Part shown: one piece after another, positions 8,422 to 37,557 of the stretch
How the letters are laid out: every line of letters starts with the position of its first letter
How positions within the stretch are numbered: position 1 is the first letter of the stretch
DNA from: Usitatibacter rugosus
GTDB lineage: Bacteria; Pseudomonadota; Gammaproteobacteria; Burkholderiales; Usitatibacteraceae
Assembly (NCBI RefSeq): GCF_013003965.1
Contig: NZ_CP053069.1
Location: forward strand, 4,371,419-4,435,418
DNA length: 64,000 nucleotides
Direction: 5' to 3'
Program-made: the position numbers and the translations under genes
Notes under the pieces: model-generated
Databases searched by the model: none
What the model saw: the letters and a program-made list of their open reading frames with translations, nothing else
What the model was told of the DNA's origin: nothing

Positions 8422-8428
8422 CTCGGGA

Positions 8429-8591
8429 CCCCTTGAACCACGGAGGCACGGAGACACGGAGGGCCACGGAGGAATTCTTCAAGGGATTGCAGTTGCGGGC
8501 AGTCGCGATTCGCCGACGACCGAATCCTTCACGTTCATTCAAGGATTACTCCGTGGCCCTCCGTGTCTCCGTGCCTCCGTGGTTCAAGGGG
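8429..8591. repeat. perfect 43-bp inverted repeat with CACGGAG tandem units
   Basis: The arms at 8429-8471 and 8549-8591 are perfect reverse complements, separated by 77 bases. Each arm is built from repeated CACGGAG-type units (ACGGAGGCACGGAGACACGG). It fills the gap between the convergent metW and ampG-like genes. Such CACGGAG palindromes are found dispersed in many environmental bacteria. It could serve as a bidirectional terminator or be a non-autonomous palindromic element, but no target-site duplication was identified. Confidence 0.9.
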
Positions 8592-8608
8592 GCCCGAGAG
8601 ATCTTGAA

Positions 8609-19607: not shown

Positions 19608-19670
19608 GGGGTCAGACTCGAATTCGCGCTTCTGTCCGGTTCACGGGACTGCGAATTCGAGTCTGACCCC
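19608..19670. repeat. 20-bp perfect inverted repeat between mreB and mreC
   Basis: The arms at 19608-19627 and 19651-19670 are exact reverse complements (core GGGGTCAGACTCGAATT) around a 23-base loop. The GGGTCAGAC end resembles dispersed palindromes in other proteobacteria, and the core recurs at 48615-48629. The hairpin may attenuate or process the mreB-mreC transcript. No transposase is adjacent. Confidence 0.88.
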
Positions 19671-21129: not shown

Positions 21130-23030
21130 GCGCCGCACTCGGCCACGCGCTGCGCGACCAGCGCCGCGAGATGCGGGTCTTCCAGAGCCGCATCGTGCTC
21201 TCGGGCCTGTTCATCCTCATCGCCTTCGGCCTGCTGGTGGCGCGCTTCACCTGGCTGCAGGTCGTGCAGCGCGAGTACTACCACACGCTCGCCGAGCAGA
21301 ACCGCATCTCCGTCGTGCCCGTGGTTCCCAACCGCGGCATCATCACCGACCGCAACGGCGAGATCCTCGCGGCCAACTTCTCGGCCTACACGCTGGAGAT
21401 CACGCCGAGCAAGGTGTCCAACGTCGAGCGCGCCATCGACGATCTCTCCGAAGTGATCGAGGTGAGCCCGCGCGACCGCCGCCGCTTCAAGAAGCTGCAG
21501 GAGGAGAGCAAGAACTTCGAGAGCCTGCCGATCCGCACGCGGTTGACCGAGGAGGAGGTGGCGCGCTTCGCCGTGAGCCGCTTCCGCTTCCCCGGCTTCG
21601 AGATCAAGGCGCGGCTCTTCCGCTCGTACCCCCAGGGAGAGGTCGCCTCGCACGCGATCGGCTACATCGGCCGCATCAACGACGCCGACGTGAAGCGCAT
21701 CGACTCGCAGGGCAACACCACGAACTACAAGGGCACCGACCACATCGGCAAGCTCGGCATCGAGGGCGCCTACGAGCGCGAGCTCCACGGCCTGACCGGC
21801 AGCGAACAGGTGGAGATCGACGCCGGCGGCCGCGCCATCCGCTCGCTCTCGCGCAACGAGCCGCACTCCGGCAACAACCTCGTCGTGACGCTCGACCTGC
21901 AGCTGCAGAAGGTCGCCGAGGCCGCCTTCCAGGACTACCGCGGAGCGCTGGTCGCGATCGATCCCACCAACGGCGACGTGCTGGCCCTGGTGAGCAAGCC
22001 CGGCTTCGACCCGAACCTGTTCGTCGACGGCATCGACCCGGTGAACTGGGACGCGCTCAACAACTCGCCCGACAAGCCGCTCAACAACCGGGCGCTGCGC
22101 GGCCAGTACCCGCCCGGCTCGACGATCAAGCCGTTCCTCGGGCTCGCGGCGCTGGAGACGAAGAAGCGCACGCCCGAGTTCTCGATCTCCGACCCGGGCT
22201 TCTTCGCGCTGCCGGGCGTGACTCACCGCTACCGCGACCACAAGCCCGACGGCCACGGCAGCGTGAACCTGCACAAGGCCATCGTCGTCTCCTGCGACAC
22301 CTACTTCTACGGCCTCGCCAACGACATGGGCGTGGACGCGATCCACCGCTTCCTCACGCCCTTCGGCTTCGGCGCGCGCACCGGCATCGACATCGAAGGC
22401 GAGCTGGGCGGGCTCCAGCCGTCGAGCGACTGGAAATGGCAGCGCTACAAGCAGAAGTGGTACGCGGGCGACACGGTGAGCGTGGGCATCGGCCAGGGCT
22501 ACTGGCTCGTGACGCCGCTGCAGCTCGCCGCGGCCACCGCGACGCTCGCCAACGGCGGCACCGTCGTGCACCCGCGGCTGCTGAAGGCGGTGCAGGACTC
22601 CAAGACGCTCGAGACGCGCGAGCTCGCCGCACCCACCGGCGAGACGATCCCGCTCAAGCCCGAATACCTGCAGCTCATCCGCAACGCGATGGTCGACGTC
22701 ACCAAGCCCGGCGGCACGGCCGCGCGCGCGGGCGCGAACGCCCCGTACACGATCGCCGCCAAGACCGGCACCGCGCAGGTGATCGGCATGAAGCAGGGCG
22801 AGAAGTACGACGAGAAGCGCGTGAAGGAGGCGCACCGCGACCACGCGGTGTTCATCGCCTACGCGCCGGCCGACAACCCGAAGATCGCGATCGCGCTCCT
22901 GGTGGAGAACGGCGGCCACGGCGGATCGACCGCGGCGCCGATCGCGCGCGAGGTCTTCGACTTCCACCTGCTGAAGAAGAAGCCCGCCGTGAAGCAGAAG
23001 CTGGGCGACGACGAGACCGCCAGTGATTGA
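21126..23030 (+). CDS. mrdA: penicillin-binding protein 2 (transpeptidase)
   Basis: This 634-residue class B PBP crosslinks peptidoglycan during elongation. A membrane anchor (about residues 22-42) is followed by the pedestal (VVPNRGIITDRNGEILA). The transpeptidase motifs are PGSTIKPF (SxxK), VVSCDTYFYG (SxD in place of SxN, as in other PBP2s) and AAKTGTAQV (KTG). I used GTG 21126, overlapping the mreD stop; ATG 21171 is an alternative. It overlaps rodA by eight bases. Confidence 0.96.
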   Translation: MSAALGHALRDQRREMRVFQSRIVLSGLFILIAFGLLVARFTWLQVVQREYYHTLAEQNRISVVPVVPNRGIITDRNGEILAANFSAYTLEITPSKVSNVERAIDDLSEVIEVSPRDRRRFKKLQEESKNFESLPIRTRLTEEEVARFAVSRFRFPGFEIKARLFRSYPQGEVASHAIGYIGRINDADVKRIDSQGNTTNYKGTDHIGKLGIEGAYERELHGLTGSEQVEIDAGGRAIRSLSRNEPHSGNNLVVTLDLQLQKVAEAAFQDYRGALVAIDPTNGDVLALVSKPGFDPNLFVDGIDPVNWDALNNSPDKPLNNRALRGQYPPGSTIKPFLGLAALETKKRTPEFSISDPGFFALPGVTHRYRDHKPDGHGSVNLHKAIVVSCDTYFYGLANDMGVDAIHRFLTPFGFGARTGIDIEGELGGLQPSSDWKWQRYKQKWYAGDTVSVGIGQGYWLVTPLQLAAATATLANGGTVVHPRLLKAVQDSKTLETRELAAPTGETIPLKPEYLQLIRNAMVDVTKPGGTAARAGANAPYTIAAKTGTAQVIGMKQGEKYDEKRVKEAHRDHAVFIAYAPADNPKIAIALLVENGGHGGSTAAPIAREVFDFHLLKKKPAVKQKLGDDETASD

Positions 23031-24120
23031 GCGCCTCTTCAACCTGGTCGCCCGCCGCATCGACGGGCCGCTCATGGCGGCGCTGATGCTCGCCATCGCG
23101 CTCGGCCTCACGGTGATCTACTCGGCCTCGGGCGGCCAGTCGTTCGACCGCGTCGGCGGCCAGGTGCGCAACGTCCTCGTGGCCCTGGGCGCCCTGTGGA
23201 TCGCCGCCAACGTGCCGCCGCAGACGCTGATGCGCCTCGCGGTCCCGGTCTACGTCGTGGGCATGGCGCTGCTGGTGGGCGTGGCGGTCTTCGGCGATGT
23301 GCGCAACGGCGCCCGCCGCTGGCTGAACCTCGGCTTCGGCTCGGTGCAGCCCTCCGAGATCATGAAGATTGCCGTGCCGCTGGTGCTCGCGTGGTACTTC
23401 CACCGCCACGAGGAAGGGCTGCGCATCCGCGACTACGCCGTCGCCACGATCATCCTCGCCCTGCCCGTGGGCCTCATCGCGCGCCAGCCGGACCTGGGCA
23501 CCGCGCTGCTCATCTTCGCCTCCGGGTTCTTCGTGATCTTCCTCGCCGGCCTGTCGTGGAAGCTCATCGTCGGCATGGGCACGGCGGGCCTGGCCGCGCT
23601 GCCGTTCCTTTGGTCCGTGCTCCACGACTACCAGAGGAAGCGAATCCTCACGCTGCTGGACCCGATGACGGACCCGCTCGGCGCCGGCTACCACATCATC
23701 CAGTCGACGATCGCCATCGGCTCGGGCGGCCTGCTCGGCAAGGGGTGGTTGAACGGAACGCAGGCGCAGCTCGACTTCCTGCCCGAGCGCTCGACGGACT
23801 TCATCTTCGCCGTCTTCGGCGAGGAGTTCGGGCTCGCGGGCATCGCGGTGCTGATCGCGCTCTACGTGCTCATCATCGCGCGCGGCCTCATGATCGCGGC
23901 GAGCGCTTCCACCACCTTCTCGCGCCTGCTGGCGGGCGCCGTGACGCTCACGTTCTTCACGTATGCATTCGTGAACATGGGCATGGTCACCGGCATCCTC
24001 CCGGTGGTGGGCGTGCCGCTGCCGCTCATCAGCTATGGCGGGACGGCGCTGCTGTCGATGCTGATCGGGTTCGGGATCCTCATGTCCGTCGCCACCCACA
24101 AGCAGCTGGTTCAGAGTTGA
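23023..24120 (+). CDS. rodA: SEDS peptidoglycan polymerase RodA
   Basis: This is a 365-residue SEDS glycosyltransferase with about ten membrane segments. It polymerises lipid II together with PBP2. Conserved parts include RRWLNLGFGSVQPSEIMKIA, RQPDLGTALL, the large extracellular loop ending LPERSTDFIFAVFGEEFG, and GVPLPLISYGGTALLS. It starts within mrdA, so the two are coupled, as is typical. Confidence 0.97.
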   Translation: MIERLFNLVARRIDGPLMAALMLAIALGLTVIYSASGGQSFDRVGGQVRNVLVALGALWIAANVPPQTLMRLAVPVYVVGMALLVGVAVFGDVRNGARRWLNLGFGSVQPSEIMKIAVPLVLAWYFHRHEEGLRIRDYAVATIILALPVGLIARQPDLGTALLIFASGFFVIFLAGLSWKLIVGMGTAGLAALPFLWSVLHDYQRKRILTLLDPMTDPLGAGYHIIQSTIAIGSGGLLGKGWLNGTQAQLDFLPERSTDFIFAVFGEEFGLAGIAVLIALYVLIIARGLMIAASASTTFSRLLAGAVTLTFFTYAFVNMGMVTGILPVVGVPLPLISYGGTALLSMLIGFGILMSVATHKQLVQS

Positions 24121-24176
24121 ATGCGTCGATGGCGGGCATGGTCGAAGCGATGGACGCCGGATTGGGAAAGGGAAGG

Positions 24177-25226
24177 ATGGGAAGGAAAAGCGGAGGAAGG
24201 GAAGGAAATCCATTCGTCGTCCCTTGCGAAGGCCGTCGATGTGACTCGACCCGCTTTCCTTCCCTTCCTCCGCTTTTCCTTCCCTTCCTTCCCCCTAAAC
24301 ACGGCGCATTCACCTTCACCCGCCTCTCCCTTGTCGTGGTCGCCCTGGTGCTAGCCGCGTGCGGAAGCGCACCGAAGAAGGCCGAAGACGCCCCGAAAGG
24401 CACCAGCCCCAAGTACTACTCCGACGACGGCCCGCCCACCTCGGTGCCCGACAACCTCGCCTCGATCCCCGATGCGGTGCCGATCGACGAGCCGTTCCAC
24501 CGCTTCGCGAACCGCCCTTACGTCGTCTTCGGGCGCAGCTACGTGCCGGCGGTGAACAAGGACGCGTACCGCGAACGCGGCGTCGCCTCGTGGTACGGCA
24601 AGAAATTCCACGGTCAGAAGACGTCGTCGGGCGAGGTCTACGACATGTTCGCGATGACGGCCGCGCACAAGACGCTGCCGATCCCCAGCTATGCGAAGGT
24701 CACCAACGTGCGCACCGGCGCCTCGGTGGTCGTGCGCGTGAACGACCGCGGGCCGTTCCACGGGGATCGCATCATCGACCTCTCGTACGCCGCGGCGTCG
24801 CGCATTGGCATCGCCTCGGCCGGCAGCGGCCTCGTGGAAGTGGAGCGCGTGTTCGGCGGCCAAGCCGTTGTCGCGAGCGCGTCGCCGGTCGCGACGCCCG
24901 TGAATTCCGCACCGGTGGCCACCGCGCTCGCGCCGACACCGCCGATCATGGCCATCGCGACGACGATCGAGACGCCGGTCGTCTCCTCGGACGCGGGCAG
25001 CCTCTACCTCCAGCTCGGGGCCTTCTCGGCCGCCGAGAACGCCGAGCTCTTCCGCAATCGCATGCAGGGCGAGCTGGGCTGGAACCTCGAGCCCATCGAC
25101 ATCGCGCAGCGCGATGGCCTGCATCGCGTGCGCCTCGGCCCGTACCGCAACCGCGACGAGGCGCTCGCCATCGCCGAGAAGGTGCGCTCCACGCTCGGAT
25201 ATTCCCCCGCCCTCACGAACCGCTGA
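24177..25226 (+). CDS. rlpA: RlpA-like septal ring lipoprotein, abnormal 5' end
   Basis: The protein core is standard. There is a lipobox (LVLAAC), a double-psi beta-barrel with GVASWYGKKFHGQKTSSGE and VRVNDRGPFHGDRIIDLSYAAA, and a C-terminal SPOR domain that binds denuded glycan. RlpA acts as a lytic transglycosylase or envelope factor. The start is the problem. Just before the signal peptide the frame reads PKHGAFTFTRLSLVVVALV with no start codon, and an inverted repeat ends there. A normal start would have been at about 24297, where CCT now stands before AAA CAC GGC. I list ATG 24177, which has purine-rich sequence upstream; ATGs at 24129, 24138 and 24150 are alternatives. All give an odd 40-60 residue extension before the lipobox. 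Confidence 0.8.
   Translation: MGRKSGGREGNPFVVPCEGRRCDSTRFPSLPPLFLPFLPPKHGAFTFTRLSLVVVALVLAACGSAPKKAEDAPKGTSPKYYSDDGPPTSVPDNLASIPDAVPIDEPFHRFANRPYVVFGRSYVPAVNKDAYRERGVASWYGKKFHGQKTSSGEVYDMFAMTAAHKTLPIPSYAKVTNVRTGASVVVRVNDRGPFHGDRIIDLSYAAASRIGIASAGSGLVEVERVFGGQAVVASASPVATPVNSAPVATALAPTPPIMAIATTIETPVVSSDAGSLYLQLGAFSAAENAELFRNRMQGELGWNLEPIDIAQRDGLHRVRLGPYRNRDEALAIAEKVRSTLGYSPALTNR
24179..24284. repeat. 30-bp perfect inverted repeat (GGAAGG-rich) at the rlpA 5' end
   Basis: The arms at 24179-24208 and 24255-24284 are exact reverse complements, purine-rich on one side and pyrimidine-rich on the other, with a 46-base spacer. The right arm is followed by further TTCCTTCCCCC and then by the codons of the rlpA signal peptide. 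The element lies between the rodA stop and the rlpA lipobox and appears to have displaced the original start. Confidence 0.88.
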
Positions 25227-35605: not shown

Positions 35606-36994
35606 ATGCAACAAGACGACAAGGCGGCCAAGGCCTGGTCCGGCCGTTTCAACGAGCCCCTGGACCGACTCGCCCAGCGATTCAACGCCTCGGTCGACTT
35701 CGACAAGCGCCTGGCCGCCTTCGACATCGAAGGGTCCCTCGCGCACGCGCGCATGCTGGCCCGCGTGGGCATCCTGCCCGCCGCGGACCTGGCCGACATC
35801 GAGCGCGGCATGGGCCAGATCGCCAAGGAAGTCCACGACGGCACCTTCCCCTGGACGATCGAGCGCGAGGACGTCCACCTCAACATCGAGGCGCGCCTCA
35901 CCGACCTGGTGGGCGATGCGGGCAAGCGCCTCCACACCGCCCGTTCGCGCAACGACCAGGTCGCCACCGACATCCGGCTGTGGCTGCGCTCCGAGATCGA
36001 CGCGCTCACCGGCGTGCTGAAGACGCTTCGCGGGCGGCTGCTGGACTCGGCCGAGGCCGACGCCTCGACGCTGATGCCGGGCTTCACCCACCTGCAAGTA
36101 GCCCAGCCGGTGACGTTCGGCCACCACCTCATGGCCTACTACGAGATGTTCACGCGCGACGCCGCGCGGCTGGCCGATTGCCGCAAGCGCGTGAACCGCC
36201 TGCCGCTGGGCGCCTCCGCGCTCGCCGGCACGAGCTACCCGATCGACCGGGAGAGTGTCGCAAAGGAGCTCGGCTTCGACGGCGTGTGCGAGAACTCGTT
36301 GGATGCGGTCTCCGATCGGGACTTCGCGGTGGAATTCCTGGCGGCGGCGGCGCTGATGCAGGCGCACGTGTCGCGCTTTGCCGAAGAGCTGATCCTCTGG
36401 TCGAACCCGCGCTTCGGCTTCGTCGAGCTCGCCGACCGGTTCTGCACCGGCTCCTCGATCATGCCCCAGAAGAAGAATCCGGACGTGCCCGAGCTGATGC
36501 GCGGCAAGACCGGCCGGGTCTACGGCTCGCTCTTCGCGATGCTCACGATCATCAAGGGGCAGCCCCTGGCCTACAACAAGGACAACCAGGAGGACAAGGA
36601 GCCGCTCTTCGACACGGCCGATACGCTGCGCGATGTCCTCACGCTGCTGGCGGAGCTGCTGGGGGGACTGAAGGCGCGTCCCGACCGCATGATGGCCGCG
36701 CTGGCCGAAGGCCACGCGACAGCTACGGACCTCGCCGACTACCTCGTCCGCAAGGGCCTGCCGTTCCGCGACGCCCATGAAGTGGTGGCGCGCGCCGTTC
36801 GCGAGGCCGTGAAGCTCGGCAAGGAGCTGCCGGCGTTGCCGCTCGCGACGCTGAAGTCGTTTTCTCCGCTGGTGGGCGACGATGTCTTTGCCGTGCTGAC
36901 GCCCGAAGGCTCGGTCGCCTCGCGCAGCCACATCGGCGGCACGGCGCCCTCGGCGGTGAAAGCCGCGATCGCGCGCGCTCGGAAAGCGCTCTAG
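35606..36994 (+). CDS. argH: argininosuccinate lyase
   Basis: This 462-residue enzyme cleaves argininosuccinate to arginine and fumarate. The signature [20 protein letters not shown] is near residues 284-303, with [14 protein letters not shown] and [14 protein letters not shown] also intact. The start at 35606 is only 30 bases from the divergent algZ start; a TATACT at 35565-35570, inside the algZ start region, could serve as its -10. Its end overlaps the MarR gene on the other strand by four bases. Confidence 0.97.
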
Positions 36995-37557
36995 GCCGAC
37001 TCTTCGGTCTTCGGCTCGAAGAACCAGCAGATCTTGCGGGTCTCGGGCCCGGAAATCCGGTCGCCCATCAGGCCGCAGCGCGACGCGCGCTGCGAGAGGC
37101 GCTGGCACTGCTTGCAGTTATTGCACGCCCCGAAGGTGGATCCCTCGTTGTCGATCTGGAGCTGCGTGAGCGCCTCGCGCAGCGCCGAGACGGCGTTGCG
37201 GATGCGGTTGGGGCTGATGTTGCGCGTGGCGTTGGTCCAGGCGAGCGTGGGCTGCGACTCGTAGAGGAACTGGTCGCCGGCCGAGGAAAGGCGCAGGCGG
37301 ACCACGCGGCGGTCGATGTCGTCCTCGAATCGCTCGATCAGGCCGCGCCGGTCGAGCAGCAGGAGCGTCTGCGACACCGTGCCCTTGGTGAGGCCGAGGT
37401 AGTCGGCGAGGGCTTGCGGGGTGTTGGAGTAGCGGTTGGCCTTGCTGAGGTACACCAGCGCCTGGAGGTGCACGGGCTGGAGGCTCTCGTCGGTGCCGGA
37501 CTTGCGGTGCTCCGTGCGCATCAGGTTGCCGAGGCGCTCGACCAGCTCCAGGAGCAC
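36991..37557 (-). CDS. MarR-family regulator with Cys-rich C-terminus
   Basis: This is a 188-residue protein starting at GTG 37557, the only usual start after the in-frame stop upstream. The winged HTH has [28 protein letters not shown] near residues 48-75 and the basic wing [13 protein letters not shown]. The C-terminal 50 residues carry five cysteines in the spacing CX2CX2CX9CX15C (GACNNCKQC, then ASRCG and KICWFF), which could hold an Fe-S cluster or zinc. It is convergent with argH. Two similar palindromes lie 58 and 106 bases upstream, probably autoregulatory sites. Confidence 0.85.

Follow-up and report, generated by a model that had tools for sequence, protein, structure and literature searches.

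How is rlpA started when what immediately precedes its signal peptide is not a start codon but instead the end of a long inverted repeat? This question is raised by the rodA-rlpA junction of the window, that is, of the whole 64,000-nucleotide stretch of DNA that was analysed. The answer which I consider likely is that the inverted repeat is a gene-less miniature of a dispersed palindromic element, one that inserted behind the old rlpA start. The locus thus would be a natural case of a hairpin separating a start codon that overlaps an upstream stop from the lipoprotein signal peptide.

Upstream at this junction, where all features except the hairpin loop are given on the + strand, is rodA (23023..24120), an ORF of the FtsW/RodA/SpoVE family (PF01098, E 3.1e-109) which ends with a TGA at 24118-24120. 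Downstream is an ORF that is RlpA-like (DPBB_1, E 6.9e-26; SPOR, E 1.2e-12). Its signal-peptide end and lipobox, RLSLVVVALVLAAC, are placed at 24321..24362 by comparison with the sister species (G004), and its mature part, carrying the DPBB_1 and SPOR domains as profile matches, spans 24360..25226, with its stop at 25224-25226. Between these genes, as seen both by inverted-repeat search and by comparison of copies, are a left polypurine arm (24170..24208) and a right polypyrimidine arm (24255..24293), each 39 nt in length and together complementary at 38 of 39 positions (97%), which enclose a 46-nt loop (24209..24254). The single mismatch sits at a distance of 9 nt from the outer end and leaves the inner 30 bp fully paired; it is these that an earlier note had reported as a perfect 30-bp inverted repeat just upstream of rlpA. 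A comparison of 40 element ends adds a left terminus (24153..24169; GACGCCGGATTGGGAAA), which is an inverted match of the right terminus (24294..24307; CCTAAACACGGCGC), the latter having earlier been taken for the start of the signal peptide. As RNA, the region 24160-24306 is predicted to fold with -89.7 kcal/mol versus -50.4 +/- 3.8 for shuffled sequences (z -10.5), none of 200 of which does as well, and the hairpin is one of four inverted repeats in the 64-kb window (length at least 20, seed 14, distance at most 1000).

Relatives provide a view of this junction as it is found without the repeat. The rlpA locus was fetched for 23 relatives of the family; in 18 of them a start codon overlaps the rodA stop and leads, in frame and without a stop, to the lipobox. 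Thirteen of these were found by script and the other five (G001, G005, G009, G014, G020) were read by eye, because in these the lipobox or the end of rodA had escaped the script; G006, G011, G013, and G021 are not placed among the 23, their rodA end not having been found. In the congener G003, rodA and rlpA overlap. Twelve of the 18 reach the lipobox Cys after 15-19 residues. The other six, all of one further genus, have stretches of 38-59 residues (G009, G015, G017, G019, G023) or 184 residues (G024) between start and Cys, and an extended RlpA is for that reason not unusual. An (E/D)RHL motif, always encoded by CGCCATTTGG, is common to four of these six. The stretch of G017 contains a perfect 13-nt inverted repeat; the long stretches of that genus are possibly another coding repeat at the rodA-rlpA junction. 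Counted by locus, the motif is shared by four of the five with 38-59 residues before the lipobox (L038, L039, L041, L042, L044). None of the relatives has the same extension as that predicted for the window's RlpA.

That the rlpA hairpin is an insertion is supported by these comparisons, since a search of 27 further genomes from the family, among which are several drafts, yields no match to the polypurine palindrome, and since rodA and rlpA overlap in G003. The sister species nonetheless is not simply a repeat-free version of the window, as its rodA-rlpA junction (L109, G004:C1:1211600-1216500) is filled by a different palindrome, with CACAGAGG arms. There, an ATG on the rodA stop is in frame over 213 nt, with one stop between, and the signal peptide has a new ATG in front of it. 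An insertion shared by descent with G004 was considered; the arms there are of the CACAGAGG rather than the polypurine type, which implies either separate insertions or replacement of one palindrome by another.

What, then, became of the start codon? The earlier note held that the repeat had removed it. Of that claim, the insertion stands, as does the absence of a start beside the signal peptide; the old start, however, has probably been separated from the signal peptide rather than deleted, because the TTG on the rodA stop (TTGA; 24117..24119) survives exactly where 18 of 23 relatives start, and is likely the ancestral rlpA start. From this TTG to the AAA at 24297 are 60 codons, i.e., 180 nt, in the same frame and open. 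The CCT (24294-24296) which precedes AAA CAC GGC is indeed present in the sequence. The suggestion that an ATG once stood directly before AAA CAC GGC is not supported, and a lost ATG at 24294 is rejected: those bases fit the element's own terminus and, as they match the terminus of other copies, no bases need be missing after the arm.

In the frame of the lipobox (Cys codon 24360-24362), the only ATG, GTG, or TTG codons from 24297 on are GTG 24336 and GTG 24348, which are eight and four codons before the Cys, respectively. A frame scan finds upstream, besides TTG 24117 and with no stop intervening, the candidates ATG 24129, ATG 24138, ATG 24150, TTG 24162, and ATG 24177 (24129..24179), the last of which lies inside the left hairpin arm. 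These upstream starts are 61-81 residues before the Cys (81 for TTG 24117) versus a signal peptide of about 21, which bears out the expectation that an upstream start would add roughly 40-60 residues. Shine-Dalgarno (SD)-like pairing 5' of these candidates is modest, with a computed duplex of -5.3 kcal/mol for both ATG 24150 and ATG 24177.

The open, in-frame path through the hairpin is suggestive only as support for translation. Across 19 copies of the element, 22 of 114 frames are open, four of these 22 in the rlpA copy, and the chance of a path that is both open and in frame is about 6% (1/3 x 22/114). At 22/114, open frames are too common by chance to be accepted as proof of coding. Among the other copies that are found upstream of a co-oriented gene, the predicted ATG is beyond the hairpin in 13 of 14, as called by a start-picking script that slightly favours ATG. 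I regard it as somewhat probable that RlpA begins at one of the upstream codons, giving rise to an N-terminal extension of about 40-60 residues that would be partly element-encoded. It is more doubtful that RNase III cuts the hairpin once this is transcribed, with rlpA as a result poorly expressed. The extension is favoured over poor expression because relatives show open extensions behind the same start.

Loss of rlpA function is the alternative which survives best, though it too is unlikely. Here the hairpin would block translation, or RNase III would cut it, with GTG 24336 leaving an eight-residue and probably unusable signal peptide. GTG 24336 is the rlpA start preferred by codon usage alone, as in the script's gene calls, and it has no SD-like pairing (computed +1.9 kcal/mol). 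Similar stem-loops are described as RNase III substrates in 23S IVS, and as proposed ones in NEMIS/Correia transcripts (PMC4990558, PMC2229807, PMC10969869). The body of RlpA is nevertheless intact, and open stretches of similar length precede the lipobox in relatives. Nor is RlpA clearly changing faster than in the sister species: dN for the window versus G004 is 0.236 versus 0.278 to G003, 0.247 versus 0.246 to G005, 0.276 versus 0.331 to G012, and 0.304 versus 0.332 to G007. With no clear acceleration against these four outgroups, rlpA as an old pseudogene is rejected, while a recent loss would not show in such values.

To return to the preferred reading, of an inserted miniature of a dispersed element, the genome does hold further copies of the repeat. 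The 151-nt hairpin region has 46 matches in its own genome (one contig, 4,563,145 bases). An arm pattern with up to three mismatches allowed finds 38 arms, 19 forward and 19 reverse (versus 0 with a reversed control), which by position pair into 19 inverted pairs; together with L025, a copy with an indel, there thus are 20 elements, the rlpA copy included. The exact 23-nt arm pattern has 0 occurrences in an 84,980-species contig collection, from which this genome itself is perhaps excluded, and also 0 in viral contigs. Stem plus loop amount to 122-160 nt in 19 copies and 452 nt in one. Among 18 copies, stems are 24-51 bp with 0-5 mismatches and loops are 43-74 nt. Arms differ within one element by 1.58 mismatches per 30, versus 3.75 between elements (19 elements; 0 of 100,000 permutations). 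As to loops, L009 serves as the reference among the 17 copies besides rlpA, and for nine of them none of 500 shuffles matches it equally well. The rlpA loop as a derivative of this majority loop was rejected, with 44 of 500 shuffles as good, i.e., it has no recognisable kinship to the majority, which counts against the preferred reading.

Element ends consist of an A-rich stretch and then (C/A)(G/A)GC(G/C) in 23 of 40 cases, or 21 of 38 without the rlpA copy, versus 3% of shuffles and 5% of 1,456 nearby 22-mers, this pattern having been written after inspection of the ends. The inverted terminus beyond the arms is close to CCTTTAAAATCGGCG and at rlpA is CCTAAACACGGCG. By the script's codon-usage gene calls, none of the 20 elements overlaps a gene, with neighbours co-oriented for 15, convergent for five, and divergent for none; the caller begins rlpA at GTG 24336.

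The window contains as well a second miniature palindrome (8422..8598, strand not assigned), found by inverted-repeat search and assigned to the same class as the rlpA hairpin, with CCACGGAG arms of 61 nt (93%) and a 55-nt loop. In the genome the CCACGGAG family has 36 arms in 18 inverted pairs, which is to say one copy carrying a gene of the GxxExxY family (1770587-1771130) and 17 miniatures, and there are 0 in five congeners. Both arms at 8422-8598 match one arm of that carrier (G000:C1:1770587-1771130) over 35 of 35 nt. Left arms of the 17 miniatures are 98.0% identical, while their loops, of length 72-78, are 65% identical (shuffled, 51%). Such uniform arms with drifting loops imply either arm homogenisation or sequence-specific selection. 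No clear target-site duplication was seen by eye in the flanks of the 20 polypurine and 18 CCACGGAG copies, for which there is no same-species empty site, and no transposition product was identified. Palindromes can also be nested, as a composite of a CACAGAGG palindrome enclosing a polypurine palindrome occurs at two sites 34 kb apart. At these sites (L007 1449-1738 and L015 1455-1740) the inner loop is oppositely oriented, i.e., there is a loop inversion across the arms.

The polypurine family likewise has a gene-carrying copy. The 452-nt element, at G000:C1:2753563-2754018, holds in its loop an ORF that is a clear member of the GxxExxY family (TIGR04256, E 3.9e-37; PF13366 PDDEXK_3, E 2.3e-36), and elsewhere in the genus GxxExxY genes have palindromic arms of different kinds on either side. 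For a flank test, 250 nt were taken on each side of a gene and the best inverted repeat between the flanks was scored, with a threshold of 15 that was chosen after the background was seen. Scores of at least 15 are found for GxxExxY loci in 10 of 11 from the genus, 11 of 14 from the order, and 22 of 28 from the phylum (43 of 53), versus 0 of 24 PIN control loci; the PIN cross-pair background (n=552) has its 99% point at 12 and a maximum, an outlier, of 39. Three of the 10 GxxExxY loci (of 53) that are below threshold are fragments under the family cut-off, and the phylum loci are not independent because they come largely from one family (f74). A wider set of 80 named loci, drawn from many phyla and with Methanosarcinales among them, has 76 that could be tested; of these, 50 score at least 15 and 26 are below, versus 4.5% of cross-locus pairs scoring at least 15, a figure that is inflated by arm motifs in common. 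The GxxExxY loci tested are those fetched from among the matches, and they are phylogenetically not independent.

The arms of these loci are made of units of about 8-11 nt, e.g., ACCGCAGAGGACGCAGAGG, and the arms of the rlpA copy are of this kind. In CACAGAGG arms, AGG recurs in steps of 9, 11, and 9, and the polypurine arm has the same steps with one extra AGG within the last. As to the protein, a GxGxxExxY motif, D62, E72xK74, and Q86 are invariant in 28 aligned GxxExxY sequences, and such invariant residues are as in PD-(D/E)XK nucleases. An AlphaFold2 model of a relative's GxxExxY protein (L226; pLDDT 96) has PD-(D/E)XK nucleases as its best matches in the PDB, namely SSO0001 of the Cas4 family (prob 0.99), and lambda exonuclease and related exonucleases, with Hjc further down; the best match has E 0.0038, with none below 0.001. 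TIGR02436 genes of the order (L146-L166), presumably the same family as the S23 or four-helix-bundle ORF of IVS, have inverted arms, mostly of short tandem units, in 16 of 21 cases, two identical copies among them.

Two GxxExxY loci are of separate interest. In the sister species, L119 (G004:C1:2927020-2927367) has a GxxExxY gene with, by eye, the same neighbours as the polypurine carrier and no paired left arm; 3' of the gene is a pyrimidine-rich stretch, and this locus looks like a decayed carrier. At L115 (1866-2003) a miniature palindrome adjoins a GxxExxY carrier, with arms that are near-identical. The GxxExxY family has been defined by its protein alone, and papers naming it appear, in the portions available, not to treat flanking palindromes. 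Among the matches listed, which are mainly from outside of subscription journals, no paper was found on an association of GxxExxY with palindromes.

In my reading, the rlpA hairpin is a miniature belonging to a REPIN-like, nuclease-linked class of palindromes. Members of this class would have two long inverted arms of ~8-11-nt units, with a loop that holds either a GxxExxY gene, in carriers, or 43-78 nt of weakly conserved filler, in miniatures, the carrier gene product being predicted to have a PD-(D/E)XK nuclease fold. At rlpA, such an element would have inserted directly after the old start overlapping the rodA stop, which is where the start is in most relatives, thereby moving the signal peptide 180 nt downstream. 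I infer in addition both that the class is mobile and that its arms are a substrate of the GxxExxY nuclease, which could act on them in trans, as a cruciform or single-stranded DNA hairpin, spreading or homogenising those arms.

A still broader proposal is offered as tentative, plausible rather than probable: GxxExxY genes may serve as partners in a REPIN-like system that is very widespread in bacteria and archaea. Each nuclease would recognise the arms on either side of its own gene, cut or resolve the cruciform or hairpin that they form, and in so doing spread and homogenise them by copying, which would leave arms near-identical throughout a genome as loops drift. The rlpA miniature would be a by-product of that system, one now forming part of the N-terminus of a lipoprotein, and TIGR02436 would be a second, parallel partner family. 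The larger result, beyond rlpA, would be this widespread, nuclease-linked class of palindromes, with the rlpA hairpin as its miniature. Widespread but unnamed intergenic repeats (with units such as ACCRCRGAGG) would gain thereby a testable origin and a candidate enzyme, and GxxExxY and TIGR02436, both families of proteins with unknown function, a role to test. A nuclease-based counterpart to REPIN/RAYT is thus what is being offered.

REPIN/RAYT systems, as described by Bertels and Rainey (2011; PMC3116915), are alike in having inverted doublets which give rise to hairpins, conserved ends, an extragenic location, a spacer with its length kept more than its sequence, and one partner gene per family. 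The layout here, of two inverted conserved ends, a spacer of kept length, and a hairpin, is indeed of that type. In that same text, however, REPINs consist of REP sequences with an invariant 16-mer, whereas here each arm consists of phased ~8-11-nt units over 35-50 nt, and the REPIN partner is a Y1 transposase (RAYT), whereas here it is a loop gene whose product is predicted to have a PD-(D/E)XK fold.

Bacterial MITEs (NEMIS/Correia, ERIC, YPAL), going by PMC2229807 and PMC10969869, are alike in being short, palindromic, dispersed, and non-autonomous, and the present family, with 20 copies of a short dispersed element with terminal inverted repeats, has that layout. The same sources have MITEs sometimes fused in frame to genes, and NEMIS/Correia transcripts as forming stem-loops proposed to be RNase III substrates. 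The rlpA case resembles a 168-bp Yersinia element which is part of a predicted signal peptide (YPO1552; PMC2229807). The parents of MITEs, in these texts, are mainly IS with a transposase, whereas here GxxExxY, with its predicted PD-(D/E)XK fold, is the sole gene found within any copy, and no target duplication was seen. Rickettsia palindromic elements are described in PMC2229807 and PMC10969869 as palindromes of ~105-150 nt that are translatable within host genes. By contrast, gene calling puts the present copies between genes, with translation proposed for the rlpA copy only. I know of no Rickettsia palindromic element which carries a gene. The 23S IVS of Coxiella, as described in PMC4990558, have terminal inverted repeats as a stem and a small ORF of unknown function in the loop, with the IVS RNA removed by RNase III. 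In that source IVS are found in 23S rRNA genes, whereas the sites here are between protein genes, with GxxExxY as the ORF, and the rlpA hairpin in particular lies between rodA and rlpA rather than in a 23S rRNA gene. I assign the element to none of these three kinds, REPIN, MITE, or IVS, as no target duplication was seen and it does not lie in 23S rRNA.

These likenesses bear on a further alternative, that the palindrome is an ordinary IS-derived MITE, or else a REPIN moved by a RAYT, with the GxxExxY gene as a passenger in one copy. Size, intergenic siting, and miniature form fit both MITEs and REPINs as characterised in PMC10969869, PMC2229807, and PMC3116915, and REPINs there likewise combine conserved ends with less conserved spacers and compensatory changes. 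Arms differing in sequence nonetheless flank most of the tested GxxExxY loci of many phyla, versus none of the 24 PIN loci, and one GxxExxY carrier is likewise present in this genome's second arm family, such that a mere passenger seems rather improbable.

Less probable again is that the hairpins are regulatory or terminator structures selected by the host, with arm pairing kept by selection on RNA structure rather than by mobility. All 20 copies are downstream of at least one gene, never between divergent genes, and the strong RNA fold at rlpA and the paired changes within elements would also fit such a role. This explanation must however contend with the absence of any match in 27 relatives and of the second family from five congeners, with left arms of that second family being 98% identical in 17 miniatures, which is more than pairing alone requires, and with one copy being nested within another palindrome. 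An assembly or sequencing error that removed a genuine ATG at the repeat is very improbable, for while long palindromes are hard to sequence and only one genome is at hand, the sequence that follows the arm agrees with the terminus seen in other copies and the genome is a single contig with an estimated completeness of 100%.

Two other repeats of the window may be noted. One, at 19608-19670, has perfect 20-bp inverted arms (GGGGTCAGACTCGAATTCGC) around a 23-nt loop, and these arms are its only two matches within the window. The other is a 23-nt inverted repeat (91%) with its arms, at 36730-36752 and 37389-37411, 636 nt apart.
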